Positions 10,290 through 24,618 of a stretch of 64,000 nt of DNA are shown here, one piece after another (position 1 is the first letter of the stretch; every line of letters starts with the position of its first letter). Under the pieces are notes generated by a model. The model was not told the origin of the DNA, did no database searches, and was given only the letters and a program-made list of their open reading frames with translations. The translations under genes were made by a program, and so were the position numbers. The stretch spans positions 4,158,501 through 4,222,500 of the forward strand of contig NZ_CP120997.1 in NCBI RefSeq assembly GCF_030719295.1. The letters are read 5' to 3'. The DNA comes from Streptomyces sp. Mut1 (lineage in GTDB: Bacteria; Actinomycetota; Actinomycetes; Streptomycetales; Streptomycetaceae).

Positions 10290-10296
10290 CCACGGG

Positions 10297-10743: not shown

Positions 10744-11013
10744 CTACGTGCCGCCCGACACCAGCAGTTCGATCCGCTCCGGGTCGAACACGACCCACTG
10801 GGCACGAGCCGATCCGGACATCCGGAGCCGGCACATCGTGACCCCGTCCGGCCGGGCCCACCACCCGAGTACGGTCGCCGGCTGCGGCCAGGGGCCGTCC
10901 CCCCGGACCATCGCGCGGCGGTACGCGGGGGACACCTGGCCCTGGTCGGGCACCCGCTCGCCACCTCGTGGGTCCTTCCGGTGCCATTCCCGGGTGTTCG
11001 CCACATGCGTCAT
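10744..11013 (-). CDS. Small conserved-looking protein of unknown function
   Basis: An 89-residue protein starting MTHVANTREWHRKDPRGG. The ATG at 11013 is preceded by GAGAGG at a suitable distance. An in-frame ATG 15 codons upstream is less well supported. The sequence is compact and balanced (Trp, Val and Arg rich) with a beta-rich C-terminal half (VTMCRLRMSGSARAQWVVFDPERIELL), so it looks like a folded cytoplasmic domain rather than a shadow frame. It has no signal peptide and no recognised family. It lies upstream of tatA on the same strand, 168 bases away, and shares an upstream TTGCGCAA palindrome with it. Confidence 0.6.
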   Translation of the reverse strand: MTHVANTREWHRKDPRGGERVPDQGQVSPAYRRAMVRGDGPWPQPATVLGWWARPDGVTMCRLRMSGSARAQWVVFDPERIELLVSGGT

Positions 11014-11050
11014 TCGGCCGGCCTCTCTGACTAGTGACACCACCAACACT

Positions 11051-11083
11051 TCAATCATTGCGCAATATTCTGGATTATTGAAG
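11051..11083. promoter_or_regulatory. Nested inverted repeats with ATTGCGCAAT core
   Basis: The perfect 10-bp palindrome ATTGCGCAAT (11057-11066) lies within a wider imperfect inverted repeat whose arms are cttcaatca (about 11050-11058) and ttattgaag (about 11075-11083). This AT-rich island precedes the 10744-11013 gene by about 40 bases and is a plausible operator/promoter. Confidence 0.45.
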
Positions 11084-11230
11084 TGCAGATCTTCCGGTGC
11101 GCGTCGAATCGCGCCCACGGCCGACGGCGGGCCGCGCGATCCATGAGGGGCGGGTCCCGCCGGGGCCAGGGCCGATGGCCGTCCTCATGACCCGCCGACG
11201 CGGTCGCCGGACGGTCCACTCCAGGTCCAC

Positions 11231-11283
11231 CACGACGCGAAGGGCGCTCCGGACGAGGTGTCCGAAGCGCCCTTCGCGTCGTG
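11231..11283 (-). terminator. Strong 24-bp terminator hairpin after tRNA relic
   Basis: Arms 11231-11254 and 11260-11283 pair over 24 bp with one mismatch and a 5-base loop. It starts about 12 bases past the 3' end of the tRNA-like sequence at 11295-11362, the same layout as the terminators behind the intact tRNA-Asp and tRNA-Phe genes of this window. It may also end transcripts from the left. Confidence 0.75.
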
Positions 11284-11294
11284 AGGGCAGGGGA

Positions 11295-11362
11295 GGGGCC
11301 GGGACCGAACCGGCGGCCTGTCGCCCTTCCGCAATCGCCCGTACCGGCCGAGCCACCCGGCC
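11295..11362 (-). pseudogene. Decayed tRNA-Phe gene
   Basis: On the minus strand this segment aligns along its whole length with the tRNA-Phe(GAA) genes at 24444-24520 and 29334-29410. The D-arm (GGTAC) and T-arm (CCGGTTCGGTCCCGG) are well preserved. Most differences are A/T to G/C transitions. The anticodon loop has lost one base, and the acceptor stem has two mismatches (GGCCGGG against CCCTCCC). A strong terminator follows. It is therefore read as a tRNA-Phe relic, possibly left by an insertion event, rather than a working tRNA. Confidence 0.7.
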
Positions 11363-11471
11363 ACGCGACGTGCGAGAGCCGTGGCGGTTCGTCCATCAGG
11401 GCCGGCGGGGCCTGTGCGGCATGGCGTTTCGCCGGGTGTCATGGCCGCGTGGCCCGGCTCACCGTTCGTGG

Positions 11472-12098
11472 TCAGCGGTGGCGCAGCAGGTCCATCTGCC
11501 GCGGCGTCAGCGCACTGGTCTCCCGGCCGGACAGCAGCAGCGTCAGCCGGGCAGTCTCCTCGATCTCCTCCACCGCGTCGACCGCCGCCTCCAGCGACGC
11601 CGCAGCCGCGATCGAGCCGTGGTTGGCGAGCAGCGCGCAGCGCGCGTCGGTGGCTTCCAGCGCGTCGGCGAGCCCGGGATCGCCGGGCGGGAAGTATCCG
11701 ATCATCGGCATCCGGCCGACCCGCATCACGTAGTACGCGGTCAGCGGCGGCAGCGGACCGGCGGGGTCGAGACCGCTCAGACACGACACAGCGACCGCAT
11801 GTGTGGAGTGCACGTGCGCGACGGCCGTGACCTCCGTGTGCCGCCGGTAGCAGGCGCGGTGCAGCGGGAGCTCCTTCGTCGGCGGGTCGCCGCCGAGCAA
11901 CTCGCCCTCCAGCGTGACCAGCGAGAGGCGGTCGGGGTCGAGCCGTCCGAGGCACGCGTTGGTCGGTGTCAGCAGCAGGCGGTCACCGAGTCTGACGCTG
12001 AGGTTGCCGGTGCGCCCGTGCGTGATCCCGCGGTCGTACAGCGCGCGCCCCAGGGTGACGATCGCGGCGCGGGCCGGCGCTTCGGTGTCCGAGCTCAT
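11472..12098 (-). CDS. otnC: Class II aldolase-fold decarboxylase OtnC-like
   Basis: A 208-residue class II aldolase/adducin protein. The metal-binding motif VAHVHSTHAVAV (His-x-His) is near residues 93-104, the glycine-rich TGNLSVRLGDRLLLTPTN near 31-48, and a later LLANHGSIAAA near 157-167 supplies the third His. In the family, OtnC decarboxylates 3-oxo-tetronate 4-phosphate to dihydroxyacetone phosphate or an equivalent C3 product. The gene overlaps otnK by four bases (ATGA), so the kinase product is passed to this enzyme. Fuculose-phosphate aldolase is the main alternative, but the otnK partner argues for OtnC. Confidence 0.85.
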   Translation of the reverse strand: MSSDTEAPARAAIVTLGRALYDRGITHGRTGNLSVRLGDRLLLTPTNACLGRLDPDRLSLVTLEGELLGGDPPTKELPLHRACYRRHTEVTAVAHVHSTHAVAVSCLSGLDPAGPLPPLTAYYVMRVGRMPMIGYFPPGDPGLADALEATDARCALLANHGSIAAAASLEAAVDAVEEIEETARLTLLLSGRETSALTPRQMDLLRHR

Positions 12099-13375
12099 CG
12101 CGGCTCGCCCCGAGCTGCGCCGTCCAGGCGGGCGAACGCCTCCAGGAAGAAGTCGTCACCGCCGAAGTTCCCCGACTTGAACGCCAGCGCGAGGCCCGGC
12201 CGTTCGGACACCGTCCAGGGGACGCCGGTGCAGATCTCCGGCCCGATCCGGACCCGGGTGACACCCAGCGCGCGTGCCACCGCGCCCGAGGTCTCGCCGC
12301 CCGCGACCACCAGCCGCCGTACGCCGCGCTCGGTCAGCCCGACCGCCAGCCGCCCCATCGCCTCCTCCACGGCCGAGGCCGCGCGCTCCCGGCCGAGCGT
12401 CCGCTGTGCGGCGGCGACCGCTTCGGGGCGGGTATCGGCCGCCACCATCACCGGGCCGTCACCGAGATGTGCGGCGGCCCATTCCAGGGCGGCGTCCACA
12501 CTGCCGGGTCCGGCGGCGACGTCCTCGGCGGGCAGCCGCAGCAGGGGCCACCGGCGGGCGAACGACTCGACCTGCCGGAGCGTCGCCTGCGAGGCGCTGC
12601 CCACCAGTACCGCCGAGGGCCCGTCCGGCGGTACCGGAGGGGCGGCGCCGCCGGCACCCGTGGCACGGATCAGCGCGGCGCCCCAGGCGGCACCGAACGG
12701 CGCACCGCCCGCCGCCAGCGGCAGTTCGCAGGCGGCCACGGCCGCGGCCAGGTGCTCGATGTCCTCGTCCCGGACGGCGTCCGCGATGACATGAGCCGTC
12801 CCGGCACGTCCCAGGTCCGCCAGGTGCGCGGCGGTCGGCCCGGGCCCGTGCGTCGTGACGTCCAGCGGAAGCGCGCCGACCGCCGCGGGCGTCTGTGAGC
12901 CCAGCACCCGGAGCAGGTCCGGATCACGCATGGGCGTCAGTGGATGGTTCGCCATCCCCGACTCGGAGAGCAGTGACCGCCCGACGAACAGGTGCCCGAG
13001 ATAGACGGTCCGCGCGTTGGCGGGGTACGCGGGGCAGTGCACGGTCAGCGAGGACGCCAGCTCGGCCAGGAGCGCGTCGGTCACCGGGCCGATATTGCCC
13101 TCGGAGGTGGAGTCGAAGGTGCTGCAGTACTTGAGGTACAGCCCCTGAACACCATGGCTCCGCAGCCACCGGCAACTGCGGAGCGACTGCTCGCGGGCCT
13201 CCGCGCTGGTGGCCGTCCGGGTCTTCAGGGCGATGACCACGGCGTCGGCGTCGGTGTCGGGTGGCCCCTCGGGCACCCCGAAGATCTGAGTGGTGGCGAT
13301 GCCCCGGCGCACCAGGGCGCCGGCGAGGTCGGTGGCACCGGTGATGTCGTCGGCGATACAGCCCAGGACAGGCAA
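12095..13375 (-). CDS. otnK: Four-carbon acid sugar kinase OtnK-like (DUF1537)
   Basis: A 426-residue protein of the DUF1537 sugar-acid kinase family, recognisable by the N-terminal LGCIADDITGATDLAGALV, the substrate-site YLKYCSTFDSTSEGNIG and a C-terminal nucleotide domain with VVAGGETSGAVARALGV. OtnK phosphorylates 3-oxo-tetronate at O4. I chose the TTG at 13375 because GGAAGG lies nine bases upstream. An ATG at 13396 has no ribosome-binding site but could serve a leaderless transcript. An operator-like palindrome lies at 13400-13413. The isomerase OtnI and the dehydrogenases that normally feed this step are missing from the cluster. Confidence 0.87.
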   Translation of the reverse strand: MPVLGCIADDITGATDLAGALVRRGIATTQIFGVPEGPPDTDADAVVIALKTRTATSAEAREQSLRSCRWLRSHGVQGLYLKYCSTFDSTSEGNIGPVTDALLAELASSLTVHCPAYPANARTVYLGHLFVGRSLLSESGMANHPLTPMRDPDLLRVLGSQTPAAVGALPLDVTTHGPGPTAAHLADLGRAGTAHVIADAVRDEDIEHLAAAVAACELPLAAGGAPFGAAWGAALIRATGAGGAAPPVPPDGPSAVLVGSASQATLRQVESFARRWPLLRLPAEDVAAGPGSVDAALEWAAAHLGDGPVMVAADTRPEAVAAAQRTLGRERAASAVEEAMGRLAVGLTERGVRRLVVAGGETSGAVARALGVTRVRIGPEICTGVPWTVSERPGLALAFKSGNFGGDDFFLEAFARLDGAARGEPR

Positions 13376-13399
13376 CGTGGCGTTCCTTCCCACCATTTA

Positions 13400-13413
13400 T
13401 GCATACGGATTCG
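13400..13413. promoter_or_regulatory. LacI-type operator, site 1 (otnK promoter)
   Basis: TGCATACGGATTCG, a degraded copy of the palindrome TGCATRCGTATRCG, sits 24 bases before the preferred otnK start and overlaps a -10-like TATGCAT on the minus strand. Confidence 0.55.
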
Positions 13414-13460
13414 TTTTGGATGGGTGTCCGGGCCTGACAGCGGCCTTGGAAGCACCGTTC

Positions 13461-13474
13461 TGCATGCGTATGCG
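13461..13474. promoter_or_regulatory. LacI-type operator, site 2
   Basis: TGCATGCGTATGCG lies midway in the otnK/bicupin divergent region. The central CG and the TGCAT-like half-sites match sites 1, 3 and 4. Confidence 0.55.
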
Positions 13475-13530
13475 ATTAGAGATCCAGAGAAGTACCCATG
13501 TCAAGGGCACATCTTTCGCAAGCTCCAGCC

Positions 13531-13560
13531 TTGCTTGTGTGCGGCAACGGCAGCTAGGTT
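13531..13560 (+). promoter_or_regulatory. Candidate promoter of the bicupin gene
   Basis: TTGCTT (13531-13536) and TAGGTT (13555-13560) are separated by 18 bases and followed directly by operator site 3. This geometry suits repression of the plus-strand gene. Confidence 0.45.
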
Positions 13561-13561
13561 A

Positions 13562-13575
13562 TGCATACGTATACG
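13562..13575. promoter_or_regulatory. LacI-type operator, site 3 (bicupin promoter)
   Basis: TGCATACGTATACG contains the perfect core ATACGTAT and differs at two positions from the perfect palindrome at 20740-20753. It would overlap the transcription start of the bicupin gene, 24 bases before its ATG. Confidence 0.65.
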
Positions 13576-13598
13576 ATTCAGGGAAGGGGAGATCCATC

Positions 13599-14732
13599 AT
13601 GCCGAACGACGTTCATGTCACTCCCGAGGAGATCGAGCGCCGCACCATACGCCGAGCCGAACTGAAGGCGGACAAATCGGCGTTCATCGATACCTGCCTG
13701 CCAGAATGCGTGGGCAAGGAGAACTACGCGCTCATCGGCCCGGGGGTCTCCGAGAACGCTGAGCAGGTGGTGCCGGTGACCGATGCACACGGATTCAACC
13801 TGGGTGTCGCGGCCATGCCCCACGGCATCACCAACTCACTCCATCTGCACTACACAGCCGAGGTCTTCAGCTGCTTCAGCGGCGAGTGGCTGTTCCGTTG
13901 GGGCGTCGGCGGCGACGAGGGCGAGCACGTGATCCGGCCGGGTGACGTCATCTCCATGCCCACCTGGATGTTCCGCGGCTTCACCAACGTCGGCGCGGAC
14001 GACGGCTGGATGTTCTCCTCGCTCGGCATGGACGAGACCGGCGGCATCATCTGGGCGCCCTCCGTCCTGCGGGCGGCGGCGGAGCACGGCAACTACCTCT
14101 CGGCAGACAACCGCCTGATCCGGGGCGTACCGGGGGAACGCCCGGCGGGCGTCGAGCTCACCGAGCCGATGCCCGACGAGGAGGTGCGCAAGCTGCGTCC
14201 GGTCTCCCCCGAGCAGATGCGGCAGCGGCTGGCCACCCCGGAGGACCTGGAATGGTCGGCGACGCCGTTCCTGGACTCGGAACTGCCCGGCGGCGGCGCC
14301 GAACTCGCCCTGGTGGTCGGCTACGGCATCACCGAGGACCGTGACCAGAGCCCGCGGGTGCACAATCCGCACGGTTTCAGCCTCGCCTGGCTGCGCGCCG
14401 AGCCGGGTGCGGGGGTCGGCGCGCACCGCCACGACGCCTCGCAGGTCTTCATGGTCAAGGACGGCCGCTGGCGCGTCACGCTGAACCAGGAGGACCCGGT
14501 GACCTCCGAGCTGGGCCCGTTCGACACCTTCTCCGTACCCAGGGGCGCGTGGCGGAAGCTGGAGAGCATCGGCGAGAGCACCGGCCTCCTCGTCGTCATG
14601 ACCGAGGGCGACGGCCGGGTGCGCGCGGAATGGGATCCGGAGATTCGCCGTGCGGCGTCGGCCCGGGGTACGGCGTACGACACGAACGGCTACCTCGCCC
14701 CCGCCGCGCTGGTCGGGAACGCGCAGCCGTAA
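13599..14732 (+). CDS. Bicupin protein of the catabolic island
   Basis: A 377-residue protein starting at ATG 13599 after GGAAGGGGA. It has two cupin domains. The first (about 60-150) carries a full cupin-1 motif, GITNSLHLHYTAEVFSCFSG, giving His-x-His and Glu. The second (about 265-340) has GVGAHRHDASQVFMVKDG with Gln for Glu. In both, the second cupin motif that normally supplies the third His reads Arg at that place (TWMFRGFTN and GAWRKLES). The fold suggests a sugar isomerase, epimerase or dioxygenase, but the altered metal site prevents a firm call. It is divergent from otnK and controlled by the shared operator region. Confidence 0.75.
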   Translation: MPNDVHVTPEEIERRTIRRAELKADKSAFIDTCLPECVGKENYALIGPGVSENAEQVVPVTDAHGFNLGVAAMPHGITNSLHLHYTAEVFSCFSGEWLFRWGVGGDEGEHVIRPGDVISMPTWMFRGFTNVGADDGWMFSSLGMDETGGIIWAPSVLRAAAEHGNYLSADNRLIRGVPGERPAGVELTEPMPDEEVRKLRPVSPEQMRQRLATPEDLEWSATPFLDSELPGGGAELALVVGYGITEDRDQSPRVHNPHGFSLAWLRAEPGAGVGAHRHDASQVFMVKDGRWRVTLNQEDPVTSELGPFDTFSVPRGAWRKLESIGESTGLLVVMTEGDGRVRAEWDPEIRRAASARGTAYDTNGYLAPAALVGNAQP

Positions 14733-14742
14733 CGGACGCCCG

Positions 14743-14779
14743 CGGGGCCCGTCACCGCGTGAACCGGTGACGGGCCCCG
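14743..14779. terminator. Bidirectional terminator between bicupin and hydrolase genes
   Basis: A perfect 15-bp stem (14743-14757 with 14765-14779, 7-base loop) sits between two convergent genes, 10 bases past the bicupin stop and 16 bases past the hydrolase stop. Confidence 0.75.
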
Positions 14780-14795
14780 GCCGGGTCCGCGGCGT

Positions 14796-15548
14796 TCAAC
14801 AGCCCGCGTCGCGAATGCCCATGGCCTCGTCGGTCAGCCAGCGCACCAGCAGTTCGGTCACCTCGGCCGGACGCTCCAGCGGGGTGAGGTGACCGGTGGC
14901 CGGCAGCGTCTCCAATCGGGCACCGGCCACCGCGTCGGCGATCTCCCGGTGCGCCGCCAGGGGTGCCAGCGGGTCGTCCTCGCCCGCGACCACCAGAGTC
15001 GGGCAGCGCACCTCCCGCAGTCCGGGCCGCAGGTCGGTACGGGAGTGCTGGGCGGCCAGCTGCCGGAGGAAGACATCGGGTCCGGTCCGGTCCGCCATCT
15101 CCAGCACGGTCCCCCTCAGCACCGGGTCGCCCGCGTGCGCCGGGTGCAGCAGGTGGGGGAGCAGCGATTCGGGGGTGATCCGGTCGAACTCGCCCGCCTT
15201 CGTACGCTGCGCCATCGCGTCCCAGCCCGCGCGCTGTTCGGGGCGGGGCGGACGCGCGCTGGTGGACAGCAGCGCCAGCCGGGTGATCCGCTCCGGTGCC
15301 CGCCGGGCCACCGCCATCGCCACGATGCCGCCGAGCGAGAGGCCGGCCAGCGCGAAGCGCGGGCAGGGAAGGCTGAGCACGTCATCGGCCATGGCCTCGA
15401 TGCTGTCCCCCGTCAGCGTGACGGTCCGTACCTCGGTGAGCCGCTCCAGACGCTCGGTCTGGGCGCGCCACAGCAGCCCGGAGCAGAGCATGCCGGGCAG
15501 CAGCACCACCGGTACGGCAGACGGACGGGGTACATCCGTACCGCTCAT
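14796..15548 (-). CDS. Alpha/beta hydrolase
   Basis: A 250-residue alpha/beta hydrolase. The oxyanion region LLPGMLCSGLLW is near residues 17-28, the nucleophile elbow G-L-S-L-G-G at about 68-73 (Ser70), the acid region AGEDDPLAPLA near 197-207 and the catalytic His in LPATGHLTPLERP near 220-232. It resembles enol-lactonases and carboxylesterases of this fold, so it could open a sugar lactone or hydrolyse an ester of the imported substrate. It is the last gene of a six-gene minus-strand operon and overlaps lacI by four bases. No signal peptide is present, so it is cytoplasmic. Confidence 0.82.
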   Translation of the reverse strand: MSGTDVPRPSAVPVVLLPGMLCSGLLWRAQTERLERLTEVRTVTLTGDSIEAMADDVLSLPCPRFALAGLSLGGIVAMAVARRAPERITRLALLSTSARPPRPEQRAGWDAMAQRTKAGEFDRITPESLLPHLLHPAHAGDPVLRGTVLEMADRTGPDVFLRQLAAQHSRTDLRPGLREVRCPTLVVAGEDDPLAPLAAHREIADAVAGARLETLPATGHLTPLERPAEVTELLVRWLTDEAMGIRDAGC

Positions 15549-16621
15549 GCCGCGCCGCCGTCCTCTCCGGGCCGTGCGGCTGCCTGGTGCGTCCCCCGCC
15601 GGACGGTCATGATCGGGTGCACTTGGACGCGGCCCGGACCTTCGTAGCCGGACAGCCGTTCCACCAGCATGGACACGGCGCTTCGCAGCATCGCCTCGAA
15701 CGGGACCCGGACAGTGGTCAGGTTGAACAGGGGCCAGGACGCCTGGTCCAGGTCGTCGAAGCCGACCAGCGCGATGTCCTCCGGAACCCGTACCCCCATC
15801 TCGTGCGCGGAGTTCATCGCGCCGATGGCGATGATGTCGTTCGCGCAGAAGATCGCGGTGGGCGGGTAGCGGCCCTTGAGCAGGGCGGGCAGCGACTCAC
15901 GGCCGTGCGTGAACGCGAAGGGGCCGTAGCGCACGCGTGACTTGGGCAGGCTCACGCCCGCCTCCGCGAGTACGTCCCGGAAGCCCTGCTCACGCATCTG
16001 GCCGGTGCTGGTGTCCGTGGGCCCGAACAGCGCGCCCAGCCGGGTGTGGCCGGAGTCCAGCAGCAGCTGGGCGGAGGCGCGTCCGCCCGCGAGGTTGTCG
16101 GCGACGGCGGCGTCGGCGGAGAGGTCCTCCAGCGCGCGGTTGACCAGGACCACCGGCACCTTCCGCTGGGCGAGCTCCTTGGGCAGCCGGGCGTGCAGGT
16201 GGGCCGAGGTGATGATGACCCCGTCCGCCCAGCCGCTGAGCAGCTTGGTCTCCATGCCCACCGGATCGCCGCGTTCGGCCAGGAGCGTCAACGAGAAGCC
16301 CCGGGACGCGAGTTCGTCGTGTATCTGACCGACGAGCATCGGCCACAGCGGGTTGTCCAGGTCGGCCACCAGCGCGATGCGGCCGGTGGCCCGGGTGGAC
16401 AGGCTGCGGCCCAGTTCATTGGGGATGTAGCCCAGCTTGCGGGCGGCCTCGATGACCTTTTCCCTGGTCCTCGCGGAGATACTGGAGTTGGAACGCAGCG
16501 CACGCGAGACGGTGGCTTGGGAGACACCGGCCTCTCTGGCCACGTCGTGGCTGGTGACTGGAATGGTTCCTCTTAGGTCGGACCGCTGCGCTCTGGCGCG
16601 GTGTTTGGGCGCGGGCGGCAT
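15545..16621 (-). CDS. LacI-family transcriptional regulator of the island
   Basis: A 358-residue LacI/GalR regulator. The DNA-binding headpiece (VTSHDVAREAGVSQATVSRALRS, hinge helix GRSLSTRATG) occupies residues 18-80 and a periplasmic-binding-like effector domain the rest, with the typical ending VGFDDLDQASWPLFNLTTVRVP. The ATG at 16621 overlaps the aldolase stop by one base, and the 3' end overlaps the hydrolase start, so it is co-transcribed with the transporter genes it probably represses. Its likely targets are the four TGCATRCGTATRCG-like palindromes in the two divergent promoter regions, which have the central CG expected of LacI operators. Confidence 0.92.
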   Translation of the reverse strand: MPPAPKHRARAQRSDLRGTIPVTSHDVAREAGVSQATVSRALRSNSSISARTREKVIEAARKLGYIPNELGRSLSTRATGRIALVADLDNPLWPMLVGQIHDELASRGFSLTLLAERGDPVGMETKLLSGWADGVIITSAHLHARLPKELAQRKVPVVLVNRALEDLSADAAVADNLAGGRASAQLLLDSGHTRLGALFGPTDTSTGQMREQGFRDVLAEAGVSLPKSRVRYGPFAFTHGRESLPALLKGRYPPTAIFCANDIIAIGAMNSAHEMGVRVPEDIALVGFDDLDQASWPLFNLTTVRVPFEAMLRSAVSMLVERLSGYEGPGRVQVHPIMTVRRGTHQAAARPGEDGGAA

Positions 16622-17448
16622 CAGTATCCTCCACCGCCGTCCGGCGAGGCCGAACCGTGGAACTCCGAGATCCGCCGTCCGGCCGCCTCGCGCAGCAGCA
16701 CGATGTCGTTGCCCGGGGTGACGAGGTCGTAGCCGATGTCCGCCATCCGCCGCGCGGTCGCGGCGTCGCCGCAGTACACACCGGCCGCGACGCCGGCGGC
16801 GTGGGCGCCGGTCGCGACCCGGGCGAGCGCCTGCTCGACCACCGGCGCCATGGGCACGGTCGCGGGCCGGACCCCCAGGGACAGGGCCAGGTCGTTGGGG
16901 CCGACGTAGACCCCGTCCAGGCCGGGCACCGCCAGGATGGCGTCCAGGTTCTCCAGAGCCGTGGCGGACTCCACCATCGCCCAGACCTGTACGGTGCGGT
17001 CGGCGGCGGCCGGGTAGTCCGGCCCGCCGTAGAGCAGCCCGCGGGCGGGACCGTAACTGCGCCTGCCCAGCGGCGGGTAGCGGCAGGCGGCGACGAGCTC
17101 GGCGCACTGCTGCGGGGTGTCGATGCTCGGGCAGATGATGCCGTACGCGCCCGCGTCGAGCAGTTTGCCGATCTCCGCGGGATCCAGCTGGGTGCAGCGG
17201 ACCATCGGGACCGCGGGCCCGGCGCTCACGCCCTGGAGCAGGGCGATCGCGGTGTCGATGCCGAACATGCCGTGCTGGAGGTCGATGGTGACCGCGTCGT
17301 AGGCACAGTGCGAGAGTGCTTCGGCGGCGTACGGACTGCCGCTGGAGACCCAGGCGTTGACCACCGTCCGGCCGGCGTGGATCAGTTCCTGTACGCGGTT
17401 CGCCCGGATGGAGGGGGCGGGTGTCGTTGTCGGCGGGTTCGGCGTCAT
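16621..17448 (-). CDS. HpcH/HpaI-family 2-keto acid aldolase
   Basis: A 275-residue TIM-barrel protein of the HpcH/HpaI (citrate-lyase beta-like) family. Features are YDAVTIDLQHGMFG near residues 50-63 (catalytic-base region), MVRCTQLDP near 82-90 (catalytic Arg), GAYGIICPSIDTP near 101-113 (metal ligand region) and VYVGPNDLALSLG near 184-196. Such enzymes cleave 2-keto-3-deoxy sugar acids or 4-hydroxy-2-oxo acids to pyruvate plus an aldehyde. Overlap with the upstream permease is four bases. In this cluster it probably cuts the carbon skeleton of the imported compound, on a branch parallel to the OtnK/OtnC route. Confidence 0.87.
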   Translation of the reverse strand: MTPNPPTTTPAPSIRANRVQELIHAGRTVVNAWVSSGSPYAAEALSHCAYDAVTIDLQHGMFGIDTAIALLQGVSAGPAVPMVRCTQLDPAEIGKLLDAGAYGIICPSIDTPQQCAELVAACRYPPLGRRSYGPARGLLYGGPDYPAAADRTVQVWAMVESATALENLDAILAVPGLDGVYVGPNDLALSLGVRPATVPMAPVVEQALARVATGAHAAGVAAGVYCGDAATARRMADIGYDLVTPGNDIVLLREAAGRRISEFHGSASPDGGGGY

Positions 17449-18359
17449 CCCTTGAGGGCTCCTCCGGTCAGACCCGCCACGAAGTAGCGGCGGGCGAAGA
17501 TGGTGATCAGGATGATCGGCACGGCCAGGGCGAGGCTGCACGCCGCCAGCACCTGGAAGGCCATGATGTCGTCCGCACCGGACTGTGCCGCGACGAACAC
17601 CGGGATGGTCACCGCGTCGTTCTGCGTGAGCGTCAGCGCGACCAGGTACTCCTGGAAGGCCAGCAGGAAGGCGAACAGTCCGGCCGTGACCAGGCCCGGT
17701 CCGGTGAGCGGCAGGATCACCCGGCGGAAGGTCTGCAACGGGGTGCAGCCGTCCACCATGGCCGCCTCGTCCAGTTCCTCGGGCAGCTCGCGGAAGAAGC
17801 CGGTGAGCAGCAGCACGGTGAACGGCATGTTCACCGCGGTGAAGGCGACGACCAGGGCCAGGTTGGTGTCGTAGACGCCGATGGCGCGGGACGCCTCGTA
17901 GAAGGGCAGCACGACCGCGAAACGGGGCAGCGCGCGGAAGACCAGGGCCAGTACCAGCAGGGCGGGGCCGATGCGGCCGCGGTAGCGGGCGAACGCGTAG
18001 GCCGCGGGCGCCCCGACCAGCAGGCTCACCACCACCGAACATGCCGCCACCAGCGTGGTGTTGAGCAGCGTCTCGGCGAAGACGGTGGACTGCCACAGTT
18101 CCCTGAAGGTGTCGAGCTGCGGTGTGAAGGTCCACACCGGCGGATTGCGAAAGGCGTCCACGAAGGGCTTGAGCGCGGTGAGTCCGGCCCACAGGAAGGG
18201 GGTCATCATCGCCAGCGAGACGAGACACATGGCGGCGAAGCCGATCTTGGTGCCGCGTGGGTCGTCGTGGCCGGACCGGCGGCGCGGCCGGGGCGGTGCC
18301 GCCGTGGGCGGTTCGGGCCCGCTGTCCGCGGGTGTGGCGGGGGTGTCGGTGACGGTCAT
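17445..18359 (-). CDS. Carbohydrate ABC transporter permease (MalG type)
   Basis: A 304-residue inner-membrane permease. A disordered Pro/Ala-rich start (1-35) is followed by six hydrophobic segments. The cytoplasmic EAA loop EELDEAAMVDGCTPLQTFRRVILP (about 200-223) contacts the ATPase subunit. The C-terminal LTGGALKG is typical of MalG/UgpE-type proteins. The ATG at 18359 overlaps the partner permease stop by four bases. No ATP-binding subunit is encoded nearby, so it probably shares a general ATPase such as MsiK, as many Streptomyces sugar importers do. Confidence 0.92.
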   Translation of the reverse strand: MTVTDTPATPADSGPEPPTAAPPRPRRRSGHDDPRGTKIGFAAMCLVSLAMMTPFLWAGLTALKPFVDAFRNPPVWTFTPQLDTFRELWQSTVFAETLLNTTLVAACSVVVSLLVGAPAAYAFARYRGRIGPALLVLALVFRALPRFAVVLPFYEASRAIGVYDTNLALVVAFTAVNMPFTVLLLTGFFRELPEELDEAAMVDGCTPLQTFRRVILPLTGPGLVTAGLFAFLLAFQEYLVALTLTQNDAVTIPVFVAAQSGADDIMAFQVLAACSLALAVPIILITIFARRYFVAGLTGGALKG

Positions 18360-19222
18360 GAGATCCCCCTTGCTTCGCGCCACGAGGAGCGCAGGAACGG
18401 GAAGAGCAGGACGATGGTGACGAGGATGGTCAGCACGTTCACCGCGCTGCCGATCCCCAGCCGGTAGCTGTCGTTGAGCGCGATCTGGTAGACGTACGTC
18501 ATCAGCGACTCGGTGCCCAGCTGGGAGGCGGCCGGCGTGATGATGCGGATGGAGTCGAAGATCTTCAGCGCGTCCATGATGCCGATCATGCAGACGAACG
18601 AGATCATCCTGCTGAGCCCGGGAATGACGACATAGCGCTGCTTCTGCCACCAACTGGCGCCGTCCAGTTCGGCAGCCTCCAGGGGCTCCTTGGGCAGCGA
18701 CTGGAGCCCGGCGAAGAGGATGAGCACGGCGAACGGGATCTCGTGCCAGAGCATGTGCATGGCCACGAGCGTCCGGGCCGGCCACTCGCTGACCAGCCAG
18801 TCGATGTGGATGCCGAACACCTCCAGCAGCCGGTTGGCAGGGCCGCCGAAGACGTCGTTGAAGAGCCAGGAGAAGTCCAGGGCGCCGACGACGGTGGGCA
18901 CGACGTAGGTGGAGAGCAGCAGCCCGAGGAAGACGGCGCGGCCGCGGCGCACCTTGTTGAGCAGCATCGCGAGCAGATAGCCGAACACCAGCTTCAGCGT
19001 CGTCACCACGAGGGCGAAGACGACGGTGAAGGCGGCAGCTCGCCCGAAGCGTGGGTTGGTGAGCAATTGCGTGTAGTTGTGCAGCCCGTTGAAGGTGCCG
19101 GGCTTGCCGACCGGGACATTCTGGAAACTCCAGACCAACGTGGCGGTCAGCGGGGCGATCAGCAGTGCCGCCATCAGCAGGATGGCGGGTGCCGACAGGG
19201 CGAAGAAGGTGCGGGGGCGCAA
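18356..19222 (-). CDS. Carbohydrate ABC transporter permease (MalF type)
   Basis: A 288-residue permease with six hydrophobic segments. The EAA loop KEPLEAAELDGASWWQKQRYVVIP (about 182-205) is intact and the N-terminal PAILLMAALLIAPLTATLVWSF helix is typical of MalF/UgpA-type subunits. It forms a heterodimer channel with the following permease. A perfect 14-bp hairpin separates it from the binding-protein gene, a common way to make more binding protein than membrane subunit. Confidence 0.92.
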   Translation of the reverse strand: MRPRTFFALSAPAILLMAALLIAPLTATLVWSFQNVPVGKPGTFNGLHNYTQLLTNPRFGRAAAFTVVFALVVTTLKLVFGYLLAMLLNKVRRGRAVFLGLLLSTYVVPTVVGALDFSWLFNDVFGGPANRLLEVFGIHIDWLVSEWPARTLVAMHMLWHEIPFAVLILFAGLQSLPKEPLEAAELDGASWWQKQRYVVIPGLSRMISFVCMIGIMDALKIFDSIRIITPAASQLGTESLMTYVYQIALNDSYRLGIGSAVNVLTILVTIVLLFPFLRSSWREARGIS

Positions 19223-19244
19223 GGGAGGGCTCCTCTCTCGGTCG

Positions 19245-19280
19245 CCGCCTCGCCGGCCGACGGAGCGGCCGGCGAGGCGG
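19245..19280 (-). terminator. Intra-operon hairpin between binding protein and permeases
   Basis: A perfect 14-bp GC-rich stem (19245-19258 with 19267-19280, 8-base loop) lies in the 66-base gap after the binding-protein stop. There is no T run, so it is more likely an attenuator or 3'-end stabiliser than a full terminator. Confidence 0.65.
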
Positions 19281-19288
19281 ACGGGGGT

Positions 19289-20650
19289 CTACTTCGCGTA
19301 GCCCGCCGCGTCGATGGCCTCGACCGCCGCGCTCTGGGCCTCGTCCAGCGCGGCCTTGACCGGCTTCTTGCCGGAGATGGCGTCGCCGACCGGCGCGCCG
19401 ATCACGCTGTAGACGTCCGCCATGTACGGCACCGGGGTCAGAGGCTGCGGGTCGACCTTCCGCAGCGTCTCCAGTGCGTTCGCCGCGTACGGGATGTCGG
19501 TGTTCTTGAGCAGGTCCAACCGGGAAGGCAGCGCCTGGGGCAGCGCGGACTCGGCGGTCTGCCTGCTGGTCGCCACCGCCGCCAGCTGGAACAGCAGCTC
19601 GGGGTCGGCCTTGGAGTTCTTCGTGACCGCGAATCCGTCGGTGGACAGGAACGACAACGGTTTGCCGCCCTTCTCGATCGACGGCGGTGTGGCGAAGCCG
19701 AAGTCCGCGGCGTGCGGTGACTTCGACGTGTCGGTGAGCGGTTCGAGACGGCCCGTGACCAGCATGCCCATGGCGGCCTGCCCGGTCTGGAGCTGCGTGG
19801 TGACCTCGGGTGAGGAGAAGCTCAGCGCCTGCGGCGACATCAGCGGCATCAGGCTGCGGATCTCGTTGACGGCCTTCACACCGGCGGGAGTGTTCAGCGT
19901 CGGGACCGGCTTGTCCTTCTCGAAGTACTCGCCACCGAGCGACCGGATCGCCTGCCCGAAAAGTCCCTGGATGTCATTCTCCGGAGCCATCGGCACAGCC
20001 AGCGGGTACTTGACCAGACCGGACTCTTCGATCTTCTTGCCCGTCGCGCGCAGTTCGGCGAAGGTCGTGGGCGGCTTGAGGCCCAGTTTGTCGAAGATGT
20101 CCTTGCGGTACACGAGGTGGTTGACGCTCCAGTACGTGGGCAGGCCGTACTGCTTTCCCTTGTACTGGTGGGTGGCCATCAGCTTGGGGTCGATGTCCCG
20201 CAGGTCGTACCGGTCGGAGTTCGCGGCTATGAGGTCGTCCAGCGGCACGGTCCAGCCGCGGTCGGCGTAGAGCGGGAAGACGGTGCCGAACTGCTCGACC
20301 AGGTCGTAACTGGCGCTCTTCCCCGACATGGACTGCACCGCGCGCTGCTTCTGCCCGGTCAGATCGGTGGCGGGATGGTTGATCTTGAGTGTGTCGGCCC
20401 TGCAGTTCCCCGTCACCGCGTTGGTGAAGGGGTCCGTGGCGCTGCTGTTGTACGCCAGGATGTTGACGGTGACCTGCTGTTTCGGGCGGTCGATGTCGCA
20501 GGGCACGGACGCCTTCGACTCGCCTACCTTGGCGCCCGCCCCGCAGGCCGTCGCCGCGAGGGACAGCGCCACGACGGTGGCGGCAGACGCTGTCCAGCGA
20601 CGACTCCTGGAGGCGCGCGAACGAGTGCGGGGGTGGGGAAATTCAGCCAC
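19289..20650 (-). CDS. Sugar ABC transporter substrate-binding lipoprotein
   Basis: A 453-residue family 1 extracellular binding protein. The GTG at 20650 follows AGGAG at a proper distance. A longer in-frame extension upstream would place over 60 non-secretory residues before the signal. The signal peptide runs through VVALSLAATAC, with the lipidated Cys at about residue 36. Later landmarks are NILAYNSSATDPF, YWSVNHLVYRKDIFDKLGLKPPTTF and a C-terminal helix-rich lobe. It delivers the cluster's unknown substrate to the two downstream permeases. Its promoter region contains the best operator palindrome (20740-20753). Confidence 0.9.
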   Translation of the reverse strand: MAEFPHPRTRSRASRSRRWTASAATVVALSLAATACGAGAKVGESKASVPCDIDRPKQQVTVNILAYNSSATDPFTNAVTGNCRADTLKINHPATDLTGQKQRAVQSMSGKSASYDLVEQFGTVFPLYADRGWTVPLDDLIAANSDRYDLRDIDPKLMATHQYKGKQYGLPTYWSVNHLVYRKDIFDKLGLKPPTTFAELRATGKKIEESGLVKYPLAVPMAPENDIQGLFGQAIRSLGGEYFEKDKPVPTLNTPAGVKAVNEIRSLMPLMSPQALSFSSPEVTTQLQTGQAAMGMLVTGRLEPLTDTSKSPHAADFGFATPPSIEKGGKPLSFLSTDGFAVTKNSKADPELLFQLAAVATSRQTAESALPQALPSRLDLLKNTDIPYAANALETLRKVDPQPLTPVPYMADVYSVIGAPVGDAISGKKPVKAALDEAQSAAVEAIDAAGYAK

Positions 20651-20739
20651 AGCGAGACTCCTGACAACTGTACGGGCGGCCGTCTGACGGGCCCGGAAGT
20701 GACTGGCCCGAGAGGGCTGGCGTAACTTCCAGCCACTCG

Positions 20740-20753
20740 TGTATACGTATACA
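20740..20753. promoter_or_regulatory. LacI-type operator, site 4 (perfect palindrome)
   Basis: TGTATACGTATACA is a perfect 14-bp palindrome in the 187-base divergent region between the binding-protein gene (minus) and the SnoaL-fold gene (plus). It resembles the three sites in the otnK/bicupin region. Confidence 0.7.
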
Positions 20754-20837
20754 AGACGTCGGTCGTCGCCGAAGTCAAGAGGCTGGCGGTAACGACAGCA
20801 ACCGCGAATGAAACGCGACAGAAAGGCGTGAGCGCGT

Positions 20838-21839
20838 ATGGAGATCACCCCCACCGCCTATGCACCCTTCGAAAGTCCCGAGGAGTACATCCTTCGCTGG
20901 ACGGACCAGATCTGGGAGGAGTACGGGCTGGGCCGGCTGCACGAGCACTATGCGCCGGACATGGTCGTGCACGGCGCCTACGGGCCGATCCGGGGCATGG
21001 AGACGGTGTTGCGGGGCTCTCTGGTGAAGAAGGGCGCCTTCCCGAACCGAATCGGCACGGCCGAGGACGTCATCTGCGAGTCTCGCGGCGAGAACGCCTT
21101 CATCAGCCACCACCGGGTCTTCCACTCCGGGCCACAGCAGGGCATCTGGTCCTACGGCCCTCCCTCGGTCAGGAACTCCGAGTCGCGCAACATCGCGATC
21201 TGCCTGGTGAAGGACGGCCTGGTCGTCGAGGAGTGGGTGGTACGGGACGAGTACCGGGTGGTGACCACGCTCGGTTACGACCCCGAGGAGGTGGCCCGCA
21301 CCCTGGCCTTCACGGACGAGCCGGAGGGCCTGTTCGGCACCACCGCCCCCGCTGACGTGGTGCGGCTGGGCGAGTCCGGGCCGCGACCGGAGACCCACGA
21401 GGCGGAGGCGTCCTTCATCCGCGAGTTCCTGGACGAGGTCTGGGGGAAGCGCCACCTGGAGCGGGTCCCGGAGTTCACCCAGCGGGACCTGTTCCTGGAG
21501 ACCACCCGTGCCCGGGTGCACACCCGCGCGAAGAACTACCAGATCGACCTCAACCAGATGCTGGCGCCGTTCCCCGACGCCACGATCGAGGTCCGGGACA
21601 TCGCGGTGAACACCGCGGACGAGCAGGGCACCCGGATCGGTGTGCTCTGGCGGCTGAACGGCACCTACGACGGAGCGCCGCTGTACGGCCCGGTCACCCA
21701 CTCACCGATCGAGATTCTGGGCTCGTCCCAGTTCCTGCTGCGCAAGGGCAAGATCATCCGCGAGTGGCGGGTCTTCGACGAGGTCGCCGTCATGGCTCAG
21801 GTCGCCAAGGCGCGCGGCGACGAGCCCGTCGCCGGCTGA
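20838..21839 (+). CDS. Double SnoaL/NTF2-fold protein
   Basis: A 333-residue protein built from two SnoaL-like (NTF2-fold) domains, about 15-150 and 185-325. Each begins with a helix such as IWEEYGLGRLHEHYAPDMVVHG or FLDEVWGKRHLERVPEFTQRD and ends with strands containing the WVVRDEY or EWRVFDE signature. SnoaL-like proteins include polyketide cyclases, ester cyclases, isomerases and dehydratases. In a catabolic operon a dehydratase or isomerase role on the sugar acid is plausible but unproven. It is divergent from the binding-protein gene and shares its operator. The asparaginase-aspartase gene follows 108 bases later on the same strand. Confidence 0.72.
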   Translation: MEITPTAYAPFESPEEYILRWTDQIWEEYGLGRLHEHYAPDMVVHGAYGPIRGMETVLRGSLVKKGAFPNRIGTAEDVICESRGENAFISHHRVFHSGPQQGIWSYGPPSVRNSESRNIAICLVKDGLVVEEWVVRDEYRVVTTLGYDPEEVARTLAFTDEPEGLFGTTAPADVVRLGESGPRPETHEAEASFIREFLDEVWGKRHLERVPEFTQRDLFLETTRARVHTRAKNYQIDLNQMLAPFPDATIEVRDIAVNTADEQGTRIGVLWRLNGTYDGAPLYGPVTHSPIEILGSSQFLLRKGKIIREWRVFDEVAVMAQVAKARGDEPVAG

Positions 21840-21947
21840 TCCGCGGCCCCGCAGCCCGCGTCCCGCGTCCACGGGCCGGTGTCCCGCCCTCCGGGCGCGG
21901 GAGCCGTGCCCGTGCCGTAGCCCGCCCATCCGAGAGGAGCCCTGGCA

Positions 21948-24356
21948 TTGACCGGAGCCCAGGCCGCCCGGCCACCGGAGATCATCCTGTGCAGCCTGGG
22001 CGGCACCGTCCAGTGCACCGCCGCGCCCGACGGCGCGGCGGTGCCCGACCGCGACGCGGGACTGCTGCTCGTCGCCCCCGGCACGGTGCCGGAGGGCGTG
22101 CGGGTGTGCGAACTCCCCCTCGCCGCCGTACCGTCCGCCGCGCTCGACCTGCCGGACATCGTCGGCGCGCTGCGTGCGGTGGAGCGTCTGGTCGACGCGG
22201 GGGCGGCCGGGGCGGTGCTCACCATGGGCACGGACATGCTTGAGGAGGCTGCCTTCGCGGCCGACCTGCTGTGGCGGCGCGCCGAGCCGCTGGTCGTGAC
22301 CGCCGCGATGCGTGCTCCGGAGAAACCCGGCGCGGACGGCCCGGCCAACCTGCGCGCCGCCTTGCTGGTCGCCGCACACCCGGCTGCCCGCCACACGGGC
22401 TGCCTGGTGGTCCTCAATGACGAAGTGCACGCGGCCTGGCAGGTACGCAAGACCCACAGCAGCAGTCCGGCGGCCTTCCGGTCGGCACACTCGGGCCCGC
22501 TCGGTACCGTCACCGAGGGCCGGGTGCGCATCACGGCTCGGCCCATGGACCGCCCGCGGCTGAGCCTGCCGGAGGACGCCCGGTTCCCGCGGGTCGCGCT
22601 GCTACGGGCCGCGCTGGGCGACGACGGCGCGCTGCTGGACGCACTGGACGGAGCGGTCGCGGCAGGCTCACCCCCGGGCACCGCGGCCGGGCCGCTCGGG
22701 CGGGGCTTCGCCGGGGCGGTGATCGAGGCCGCGGGCGGTGGCTCCGTCCCGCCGGCGTGGTGCGAGGGGCTTGCCCGGGCAACGCGGCGGATGCCCGTCG
22801 TCTACGCCAGCCGTACCGGTGACGGTCCCACGTTCCAGACCACCTACGGCGGTTCGGGATCCGAACGTGACCTGATCGCCATGGGGCTGCGGTCCGCCGG
22901 CCTGCTGGACGGGCTGAAGACGCGTGTGCTGCTCCGGCTGCTGCTCGCGGCCGGAGCCGGGCGCCAGCGGATCGCGGAGGCCTTCCGCGCCTTCGACGAA
23001 CCCACCCACCGCACGGCCGTGCCCCGCACCGGCCCCGCACAACCTCGTACCCGCCCAGAAGCGATCCGGAGAGAGACTGCCATGACCGGCCCCACTCGCA
23101 CCCCCGCCGCCGACCCGGCCCGCCCGCGCCTCTACGGCGCGCAGACCGAGCTGGCGCTGGCCAACTTCCCCGGCTCCGGGCGCCGGCTCCGGGATGTTCC
23201 GGAGCTGGTACGCGCCTACGGCTGGACCAAGGCGGCCGCCGCCCGCGCGAACATGGATCTGGGGGTGCTCGACGCGGAGCGCGGCACGGCGATCGTCGAG
23301 GCCGCACGGGAGGTGGCGGACGGCCGCCACGACGAGGACCTGCCGACCGCGCTCGTCCAGGGCGGCGGCGGCACCTCGACCAACATGAACCTCAACGAGG
23401 TGCTGGCGGCCCGTGCCACCCAGCTGCTGCGGGAGCGCGGTAGTGAACTGACCGTGCACCCCAACGACCACGTCAACCGCTCCCAGTCCACCAACGACAC
23501 CTATCCGACGGCGATGGCGCTGGCCCTGCGCGAACTGGCCGAGCCGACGCTGCGCGCCCTGGACCGGCTGGACCAAAGCCTTCGGTCCAAGGCCGAGACC
23601 TACGACCGGCTGGAGCGCCTGGGCCGCACCTGTCTCCAGGACGCGGTGCCGCTGACGGTCGGCCAGACCCACCGGGCCCAGGCGGTCGCGGTCCGCCGCA
23701 GCGCGGAGGGGCTGCGGCGGACCGCCGACGCCCTGGCCGCGGTGCCGCTGGGCGCGACGGCCGTCGGCTCCGGAGCGGGTGCACCGGACGGATTCACCGA
23801 CGCCGCCGTACGCCATCTCGCCCGCTTCTGCGGGATGAGCGTCACAGCCTCCGAAGATTTCTTCGACTCGATGGCCCATCTGGACCCGTACTCCGCGCTG
23901 GCCGCCGCCTGCGCCCGGGCCGCCACCCTGCTGGCCAAGATCGCGGCCGACCTGCGGCTGCTCTCCTCCGGTCCGGCCGGAGGCCTGGGCGAGGTCGGTC
24001 TGCCGGTACGCCAGGCCGGGTCGTCGATCATGCCGGGCAAGGTGAATCCGGTCATCCCGGAGCTGGTCATGCAGCTGAGCTACCGGATCCGGGGCGCTGC
24101 GGCCACGGTGGATCTCGGTGTGGCGGCGGGGGAACTCGAGCTCAACATCATGGAGCCGGTCATCCTGGACGCCCTGGTGACGGCGCTGCGCGATCTGCGG
24201 GACGCGGCGGACTCGTTCGCGGAGAAGTGCGTCGACGGACTTGTCTGGCACGAGGCCGCCCTCGAACGCAATCTGCGCGGCTCGCTCCTCAGCGCGGTGG
24301 AGGCAGCCGCGGCCCACGGATACGAGCGGGCGGGATGCGGCGCGACCGAGGGGTGA
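21948..24356 (+). CDS. In-frame asparaginase-aspartate ammonia-lyase fusion
   Basis: An 802-residue open frame from TTG 21948 (GAGAGGAG eight bases upstream). Residues 1-345 are an L-asparaginase: LGGTVQ at 17-22 with Thr20, and MGTDMLEEAAF at 93-103 carrying Thr-Asp. Residues 379-802 are an aspartase/fumarase-superfamily lyase: QSTNDTYPTAM, then the signature GSSIMPGKVNP near 691-701. The linker (about 345-378) is Pro/Arg rich. An internal GGAGAG and ATG at 23082 could start the lyase separately. Together the activities would convert asparagine to aspartate and then fumarate, releasing two NH3. The lyase part (424 residues if started internally) is somewhat shorter than E. coli AspA. Confidence 0.85.
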   Translation: MTGAQAARPPEIILCSLGGTVQCTAAPDGAAVPDRDAGLLLVAPGTVPEGVRVCELPLAAVPSAALDLPDIVGALRAVERLVDAGAAGAVLTMGTDMLEEAAFAADLLWRRAEPLVVTAAMRAPEKPGADGPANLRAALLVAAHPAARHTGCLVVLNDEVHAAWQVRKTHSSSPAAFRSAHSGPLGTVTEGRVRITARPMDRPRLSLPEDARFPRVALLRAALGDDGALLDALDGAVAAGSPPGTAAGPLGRGFAGAVIEAAGGGSVPPAWCEGLARATRRMPVVYASRTGDGPTFQTTYGGSGSERDLIAMGLRSAGLLDGLKTRVLLRLLLAAGAGRQRIAEAFRAFDEPTHRTAVPRTGPAQPRTRPEAIRRETAMTGPTRTPAADPARPRLYGAQTELALANFPGSGRRLRDVPELVRAYGWTKAAAARANMDLGVLDAERGTAIVEAAREVADGRHDEDLPTALVQGGGGTSTNMNLNEVLAARATQLLRERGSELTVHPNDHVNRSQSTNDTYPTAMALALRELAEPTLRALDRLDQSLRSKAETYDRLERLGRTCLQDAVPLTVGQTHRAQAVAVRRSAEGLRRTADALAAVPLGATAVGSGAGAPDGFTDAAVRHLARFCGMSVTASEDFFDSMAHLDPYSALAAACARAATLLAKIAADLRLLSSGPAGGLGEVGLPVRQAGSSIMPGKVNPVIPELVMQLSYRIRGAAATVDLGVAAGELELNIMEPVILDALVTALRDLRDAADSFAEKCVDGLVWHEAALERNLRGSLLSAVEAAAAHGYERAGCGATEG

Positions 24357-24401
24357 CGGCCAGTTACCCGTGCCCGACAGCTGCACCCTGACCGGCAAAA
24401 G

Positions 24402-24439
24402 GAGAACGTCCCGGACGGCATGCCGTCCGGGACGTTCTC
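24402..24439. terminator. Terminator shared by tRNA-Phe and the ansA-aspA gene
   Basis: A fully palindromic hairpin of about 19 bp per arm begins five bases past the encoded CCA of tRNA-Phe on the minus strand and is followed there by CTTTTG. On the plus strand it can end the asparaginase-aspartase transcript. A near-identical copy is at 29292-29329. Confidence 0.85.
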
Positions 24440-24443
24440 ACGA

Positions 24444-24520
24444 TGGTGGCTGGGGCCGGGATCGAACCGGCGACCTATCGCTTTTCAGGCGATCGCTCGT
24501 ACCAACTGAGCTACCCAGCC
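24444..24520 (-). tRNA. tRNA-Phe(GAA), copy A
   Basis: Minus-strand cloverleaf with acceptor GGCTGGG/CCCAGCC, anticodon loop CTGAAAA (GAA) and encoded CCA. Identical to the copy at 29334-29410. It follows tRNA-Asp copy A in a two-gene transcript. Confidence 0.95.
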
Positions 24521-24543
24521 ACGCAGCTCGTACGGGCTGCAAG

Positions 24544-24618
24544 CGGTCCTGACGGGATTTGAACCCGCGGCCTCCACCTTGACAGGGTGGCGAGCACTCC
24601 TAACTGCTCCACAGGACC
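24544..24618 (-). tRNA. tRNA-Asp(GTC), copy A
   Basis: Identical to the tRNA-Asp genes at 218-292 and 29438-29512, anticodon GTC. It lies 23 bases upstream of tRNA-Phe copy A. Confidence 0.95.

Follow-up and report, generated by a model that had tools for sequence, protein, structure and literature searches.

A Streptomyces catabolic island with OtnK and OtnC as an apparent rare form of a widespread bicupin-hydrolase-aldolase gene cluster

Our study reports on a catabolic gene island at positions 11472..24356 of a 64,000-nucleotide stretch of Streptomyces sp. Mut1 (contig NZ_CP120997.1, 4,158,501 to 4,222,500; hereafter the window), in which the 3-oxo-tetronate kinase OtnK and OtnC lie among genes for an importer, a LacI-family regulator, a bicupin, an alpha/beta hydrolase, an HpcH/HpaI-family aldolase, a double-SnoaL protein and an asparaginase-lyase fusion. 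We are nearly certain that these genes form one regulon and that the island is a variant of a conserved cluster; it appears to represent an uncommon version of a bacterial pathway that is widespread and apparently undescribed. Our preferred reading, which we put at about one chance in two, is a LacI-controlled system of uptake and degradation whose core would yield a C4 unit at the keto level, with exchangeable modules disposing of that unit and the double-SnoaL protein a candidate for the OtnI step in the window.

The conserved cluster was traced through its bicupin, for which 1,877 homologues were found at E <= 1e-20 among 8,000 scored. A genome scan for bicupin loci gave 232 confirmed stretches, of which the best 80 were taken; locus counts rest on 79, as L111 overlaps L110 on one contig, and L056-L059 lie outside them, L056 holding the same sequence as L082. 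Counted by tblastn at 1e-12, which may include paralogues (of the hydrolase and the amide hydrolases above all) and with some contigs short, the hydrolase is present in 77 of the 79 loci, the HpaI-family aldolase in 73 and both in 73; a LacI homologue is found in 71, an HisD-family dehydrogenase in 70, a double-SnoaL protein in 66, an SDR in 64 and an amide hydrolase of the families tested in 46, and OtnK in three, with one further locus holding another DUF1537 type. Within 10 kb the window likewise has a bicupin, an alpha/beta hydrolase and an aldolase of the HpaI/RraA kind. Neighbourhood searching thus recovered the same gene set in distant genera, as an earlier, sequence-only reading of this DNA had proposed to check; few genomes of the genus carry the bicupin (14 of 392 at E <= 1e-60, counting the window's own genome). 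Our gene caller, trained on the codon use of the island, missed genes in low-GC loci, six of which were redone. Ten of 27 plasmid records were examined as well (L164-L173); their gene tables are incomplete, and absences of asparaginase, lyase, HpaI, HisD, OtnI and SnoaL were rechecked by tblastn, those of HisD and of OtnI/SnoaL in L166-L169 only. No description of the bicupin cluster was found in literature titles and abstracts, a coverage outside which most subscription papers fall.

A shared operator binds the island genes together. The perfect palindrome TGTATACGTATACA lies at 20740..20753, between the binding-protein and SnoaL genes, and a second LacI operator candidate, TGCATACGTATACG (13562..13575; one mismatch to the consensus), stands before the bicupin; an operator-like site, TGCATGCGTATGCG (13461..13474; one mismatch), is found between OtnK and the bicupin, and a weak one, TGCATACGGATTCG (13400..13413; two mismatches), at the OtnK start. 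With <=1 mismatch the operator core TATACGTATA has two sites in the 64 kb versus 0.00 expected from 100 shuffles, and TGYATACGTATRCA, at the same tolerance, occurs in the 7.99 Mb genome at the two island promoters only; its reversed control pattern has no occurrence in the whole genome. With only these two places in the genome, the importer, bicupin, SnoaL and downstream asparaginase-lyase genes are very probably under one regulator, and we infer from the sequence that the island LacI would be the operator-binding protein. Two Humibacillus loci, L060 and L061, carry the identical 14 bases TGTATACGTATACA at the equivalent promoter and close variants before their bicupins, and their binding proteins are 68% and 72% identical to that of the window. 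Across the loci, an operator scored as TGYATNCGNATRCA with up to two mismatches precedes the bicupin in 59 of 78 cases, where random 400-bp pieces drawn from these loci would lead one to expect 4.0 (the 78 come from the set of 80, with L110 and L111 each counted and bicupin starts set by our own gene caller). It is common to loci with HisD and to the OtnK-type loci L060 and L061, suggesting a common inducer.

Profile searches of the window genes recovered every gene that the sequence-only reading had named for the island, each where it had been placed. On the minus strand, OtnK (DUF1537, SBD_N + NBD_C; 12095..13396) and OtnC (Aldolase_II type, PF00596; 11472..12098) form one overlapping run. 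A second, short gaps included, extends from the extracellular solute-binding protein (PF01547; 19289..20572) through two CUT1-type ABC permeases (both PF00528; 18356..19222 and 17445..18365), the aldolase (PF03328; 16621..17448) and the LacI-family regulator (PF00356 + PF13377; 15545..16543) to the alpha/beta hydrolase (PF12697; 14796..15548). The bicupin (Cupin_2 twice; 13599..14732) is one plus-strand unit, and the double-SnoaL (NTF2-like) protein (two stretches of PF07366; 20838..21839) with the asparaginase-lyase (21948..24356) is another. The overlaps earlier taken to join one block therefore hold within the two minus-strand runs and the single block does not, the plus-strand units making the island one regulon and not one operon. 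The importer has two permeases and a binding protein, and no ATP-binding subunit is found in the island. Across 394 genomes of the class, the window-type binding protein has one match beyond its own genome, in G601 at an HisD-type locus.

The enzymes expected to feed OtnK are missing from the whole genome at model cut-offs, and not from the island alone as first noticed. OtnK (NF043035, 487 bits versus 350) and OtnC (NF043034, a narrow 257 versus 250) both exceed their NCBIfam cut-offs, and a PF07005 search of the 7.99 Mb genome finds no DUF1537 gene besides OtnK. No OtnI reaches its cut-off in the genome: all 11 AP_endonuc_2 matches were scored, the best giving 168 bits versus 325, and that protein scores higher on hydroxypyruvate isomerase (307 bits, below that model's cut-off of 353). 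Genome-wide, LtnD is likewise absent at cut-off (best 186 bits versus 350; one of 14 control genomes passes), as is DenD (best 60.6 bits versus 325; none of the 14 passes). Feeders of the same regulon elsewhere in the genome were sought through the operator and none was found. The genome holds a single HisD-family match; it lies far from the island, is presumably the histidine enzyme, and the HisD route is therefore absent here too. OtnK and OtnC keep their conserved motifs, in OtnC the HxH, Glu and NHG positions across an alignment of eight, which we take to have a metal role; we likewise assume the residue roles in the aldolase, hydrolase, OtnK and OtnC, and judged by these positions the island enzymes look intact.

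Around the constant core, the genes that may deal with the C4 unit are exchanged. The commonest form has HisD, mostly with SDR (for example L057, L077, Pantoea and a conjugative Klebsiella plasmid). OtnK with OtnC is the form of the window, of Humibacillus L060/L061, of Saccharospirillum L133 and of Thioclava, Vibrio, Ensifer and Salinivibrio plasmids (L166-L169); the DUF1537 kinase of L058 and L125 is a different one, joined in L058 by an F_bP_aldolase, and L124 has an F_bP_aldolase relative and no kinase match. HisD was found in none of the ten kinase-type loci examined, and a kinase in none of the 70 HisD loci.

A second exclusion lies within the eight OtnK+OtnC loci. An OtnI-family gene without SnoaL is found in four of them (L133, L166, L167 and L169), and SnoaL without OtnI in the other four (the window, L060, L061 and Ensifer L168). 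The OtnI-family genes of L167 and L169 pass the cut-off of 325 (337 and 333); those of L133 (319) and L166 (279) fall below it and still score better on OtnI than on hydroxypyruvate isomerase. All four stand together with bicupin, HpaI, hydrolase, OtnK and OtnC, and LtnD is found at cut-off in none of the six genomes or records behind OtnK-type clusters (two genomes of unstated completeness and four plasmids). With OtnI present and LtnD absent, the OtnI substrate should come from the core, and the entry metabolite in these clusters should be 2-oxo-tetronate. The sequence-only reading had suggested that the bicupin or SnoaL protein replaces the isomerase or oxidation steps; SnoaL does stand in place of OtnI, one or the other in all eight loci, and its role is not proven by this pattern, SnoaL being present in most HisD-type clusters too. 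We offer the double-SnoaL protein as a stand-in isomerase only tentatively.

The HisD-type loci have further features of their own. Beside the bicupin cluster there are often CN_hydrolase and LysR genes (as in L062, 2024-6544, and in L072 from 143), and often another HisD, a more distant double-SnoaL 'ester cyclase', or both. One HisD-type cluster (L165, 2953-10176) is on a Klebsiella michiganensis plasmid typed conjugative (IncFIB), which suggests spread by conjugation. The bicupin of L059 (9307-10427; genome G021) is divided between two reading frames, and may be a pseudogene or reflect an error in sequencing.

From these observations we propose that bicupin, hydrolase and aldolase would convert an imported sugar-acid-like compound into two products: a 2-oxo acid of three carbons, either pyruvate or hydroxypyruvate, and a C4 unit, released at the keto level as 2-oxo- or 3-oxo-tetronate. 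A C4 unit at this level makes a tetronate dehydrogenase (LtnD or DenD) unneeded; that the unit is delivered already oxidised we hold to be rather probable. Its removal would fall to one of the exchangeable modules: OtnI-OtnK-OtnC, a DUF1537 kinase with an F_bP_aldolase (2-OtnK/2-OtnC type), or HisD with SDR. In the window form, OtnK and OtnC would give dihydroxyacetone phosphate and CO2. The step from the 2-oxo to the 3-oxo form would there need an isomerase other than OtnI, for which the double-SnoaL protein is the obvious candidate, or the 3-oxo form might be released directly. The substrates and products placed upstream of OtnK, like the parts given to HisD, SDR and SnoaL, are predicted from gene content. 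The most far-reaching version, in which the core delivers oxo-tetronate free of any dehydrogenase, SnoaL is a new non-homologous isomerase and four unrelated modules converge on one C4 intermediate, is doubtful.

A number of observations weigh against this proposal. No carbon-balanced route from a known natural compound has been established, and a dehydrogenase of another family may be encoded elsewhere in the genome. The eight OtnK+OtnC loci are not all independent, and L060 spans no more than 9.8 kb; the SnoaL proteins of Ensifer and the window share only 25% identity, and because HisD clusters have double-SnoaL proteins too, these may act in an upstream step common to both forms. The kinases of L058 and L125 are below the D-threonate kinase cut-off (84 bits versus 450 in L058; none listed for L125), and in Halomonas L120 and L122 the core has no C4 module in its neighbourhood. 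Regulation differs too: the proteobacterial OtnK-type clusters have DeoR, LysR or GntR regulators or the Ensifer LacI, with a DeoR gene in the Vibrio and Salinivibrio clusters, LysR in L133, and another palindrome, TGCATTCGAATGCA, in the Ensifer LacI cluster. As these clusters are without the operator, and some without LacI, a single inducer for all forms is unsupported.

In the bicupin, H82, H84, E88 and R126 are invariant in 16 homologues from three bacterial classes and the C-terminal cupin site is unconserved, which would give one predicted metal site, in the N-terminal cupin, with R126 at the position of the fourth ligand. The AlphaFold model (pLDDT 87) is about as close to oxalate decarboxylase as to quercetinase and seed globulins; this comparison speaks only for the cupin families that it lists, and such matches are too generic to guide the choice of reaction. 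The hydrolase keeps the GxSxG, Asp and His positions, and its best NCBIfam models are enol-lactonase (PcaD) types, with scores far below cut-off (NF051488, 121 bits versus 390). The imported compound could itself be a C4 tetronate or its lactone, which the hydrolase would open, with bicupin or SnoaL replacing LtnD/DenD as an enzyme of unusual oxidising or oxido-isomerising activity, an alternative to which we give roughly one-third of the weight of an even bet. The solved proteins nearest to the Vibrio and Saccharospirillum TRAP binding proteins, such as 4p47, 4pdh, 4p9k and 4nq8, speak for it: in the part of PMC11668362 that treats a related TRAP protein, two of the neighbouring structures are open (4P47 included) and the others contain pantoate or erythronate, in many cases co-purified. 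Against it, the aldolase, present in 73 of 79 loci, would be left without a task. Nor, to our knowledge, does any cupin oxidise a hydroxy acid to its keto acid. Relatives of the binding proteins give only weak hints and were set aside as a guide to the substrate.

The aldolase has retained the His, Arg, Glu and Asp positions that its family conserves; it scores 157 bits on TIGR02311, below the cut-off of 369, and its nearest solved chains (about 179 bits) are named HpcH/HpaI or hydroxyketoacid aldolase. One member of the HpaI family is 2-keto-3-deoxy-glucarate aldolase, on whose model the window protein reaches 137 bits (cut-off 393), and this would fit a specific case of our preferred reading, in which a C7 2-keto-3-deoxy-heptarate (for example Dha, from rhamnogalacturonan II) is cleaved to pyruvate and a C4 aldehydic acid that is then isomerised into 3-oxo-tetronate. 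The carbon arithmetic fits; the bicupin and hydrolase would have no clear task, however, the OtnI-type clusters point to entry as 2-oxo-tetronate, and no title on such a pathway was among the literature matches listed, so that we regard this case as improbable. The solved relative named hydroxyketoacid aldolase, for which we assume use of hydroxypyruvate, raises the converse, an aldolase running in reverse to join hydroxypyruvate and formaldehyde into 2-oxo-tetronate, which OtnI, OtnK and OtnC would take to dihydroxyacetone phosphate. No obvious source of formaldehyde is seen among the cluster genes and the Halomonas loci keep the aldolase without a kinase module nearby, which leaves this route very improbable. 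Three further ideas were dropped: ascorbate cleavage to oxalate and threonate, rejected as the main idea since threonate would need LtnD; breakdown of pantoate or pantothenate, which HisD+SDR and the amidases would fit, but in which pantoate cannot become 3-oxo-tetronate; and ring opening of a cyclic, shikimate-like C7 compound, favoured by arithmetic alone.

Some loci depart from the common composition of the core. Octadecabacter L170 and Sinorhizobium L173 have an RraA-family gene (clusters at 9004-12505 and 8995-10844) and no HpaI relative found by tblastn, and their bicupins are more distant, at 33-35% identity; RraA is another pyruvate-aldolase family and would take the place of HpaI in these two clusters. 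The L170 cluster also holds a MetE-like gene inside it. Halomonas L120 combines the core with a TRAP importer, and L122 has the core with genes of the same sizes.

The asparaginase-lyase gene is probably an accessory member of the regulon. An asparaginase (residues ~1-350) and a lyase of the aspartase/fumarase superfamily form one continuous frame of 802 residues, in which the lyase part has its own internal ATG at 23082 behind GGAGAGA, so that separate translation as two proteins is possible. A homologue search listed three proteins among 8,000 scored, namely the window protein, one without the lyase domain, and a fused homologue (P0122; 832 residues, on a 37.6-kb contig) with the same domain order and 83% identity over the asparaginase part, whose linker is longer, with an Arg/Thr-rich expansion, and in frame; the fused frame is thus conserved. 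The lyase ends about 50 residues before the aspartase end (profile end 423 of 474), and as its Humibacillus homologue is also short (432 of 474), this looks like a trait of the subfamily and not decay. Its nearest solved chains are aspartases, with fumarases close behind; it falls below the curated aspartase cut-offs (PRK12273, 426 bits versus 510; aspA, 355 versus 681) and has no C-terminal part, and in its GRTxLQDA motif a Cys is found versus Gln or His in two solved aspartases. A stand-alone relative of the lyase (64%) lies in L060 directly after SnoaL and before OtnK; tblastn found none in L061 or in Ensifer.

These data bear on the idea of the sequence-only reading that the substrate may be a conjugate of a sugar acid with asparagine or aspartate. 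A substrate of this kind, or another sugar-acid amide, would be deamidated by the asparaginase, with the lyase releasing fumarate. The position of the gene behind the operator-bearing SnoaL gene, the place of the L060 homologue between SnoaL and OtnK, and the amide hydrolases in 46 of 79 loci, with amidase genes in L172 and L173, agree with it. However, no relative of the window asparaginase was found in the 79 loci, in L058 or in L164-L173, which makes the asparaginase inessential to the core chemistry; L061 and L168 have importer, SnoaL, OtnK, OtnC and bicupin and no asparaginase or lyase homologue in the stretch fetched, and a plain role from asparagine to fumarate is equally possible. The conjugate idea therefore comes out weak, and we count it, with amides in general, as unlikely.

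The island lies on a tRNA-linked insertion, as shown by the gap bordering tRNA-Phe in a genome of the same species (G233), which is without 6707-24441 of the window (17.7 kb) at this place. Its alignment ends at 6706 and resumes at 24442, at the 3' end of tRNA-Phe (24444..24520, minus strand, called by ARAGORN; the right border of the insertion), the two ends being 64 bases apart in G233. A degraded tRNA-Phe-like sequence (11295..11362, minus strand), detected by local alignment with the tRNA-Phe gene and uncalled by ARAGORN, marks the left side of the catabolic block. Such a setting would suit a chance neighbourhood, with a tetronate remnant, an asparagine operon and an importer brought together on one mobile insertion; the operator shared by the island units and the fact that Humibacillus and Ensifer also have the set, without asparaginase, leave this explanation scarcely credible. 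In plasmids, the DNA of the window has two short matches only. The insertion also carries a gene at 7199-9766 named from its sequence as P-type ATPase-like. A tRNA-Phe/tRNA-Asp pair occurs twice, about 4.9 kb apart (24444-24618 and 29334-29512), with a further tRNA-Asp at 217-292, and the region is a possible integration hot spot.

Our preferred reading of a common core with exchangeable C4 modules turns an odd gene list from a single genome into a testable pathway in Actinomycetota, Alphaproteobacteria and Gammaproteobacteria, a conjugative Klebsiella plasmid included. That the modules change while the core stays constant suggests 2-oxo/3-oxo-tetronate as a likely intermediate, which narrows the search for the substrate, and the candidate LacI operator offers a handle for finding the inducer. 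It would also give functions to large unnamed families, namely the bicupin, the HpaI subfamily, the hydrolase and the double-SnoaL proteins.

A comparison with known systems highlights what is particular to the island. In the glucarate/galactarate pathway, 2-keto-3-deoxy-glucarate aldolase acts first and tartronate semialdehyde is then handled; the island resembles it in having an HpaI-family aldolase followed by disposal of the other fragment, and differs in disposing of a C4 unit by OtnK/OtnC and in having the bicupin and hydrolase. Fructose-asparagine (fra) utilisation places an asparaginase-family enzyme beside a sugar-type catabolic set, as the island does, but the island has no deglycase-type gene among its genes and its asparaginase is fused to a lyase. 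Among tetronate systems, DenD is an alternative dehydrogenase in the four-step pathway. As outlined in the relevant part of PMC12540250, that pathway for L-threonate and D-erythronate (Zhang et al. 2016) consists of LtnD, OtnI, 3-OtnK and 3-OtnC; the island, and the genome, have neither dehydrogenase nor OtnI at cut-off, and the regulon adds a bicupin, a hydrolase and an HpaI-family aldolase. The same part of that source describes a three-step L-threonate bypass (Guo et al. 2024) of LtnD, 2-OtnK and an F_bP_aldolase-type 2-OtnC, which passes through 2-oxo-threonate and is free of OtnI, so that the premise of the sequence-only reading, that OtnI feeds OtnK and OtnC, was dated and is amended here. 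The bypass is like the island in its freedom from OtnI, and its kinds of kinase and F_bP_aldolase recur in the related L058 cluster. The window OtnC, in contrast, is of the Aldolase_II type (PF00596) and LtnD is absent, and the bypass as described there thus provides no explanation for the window.

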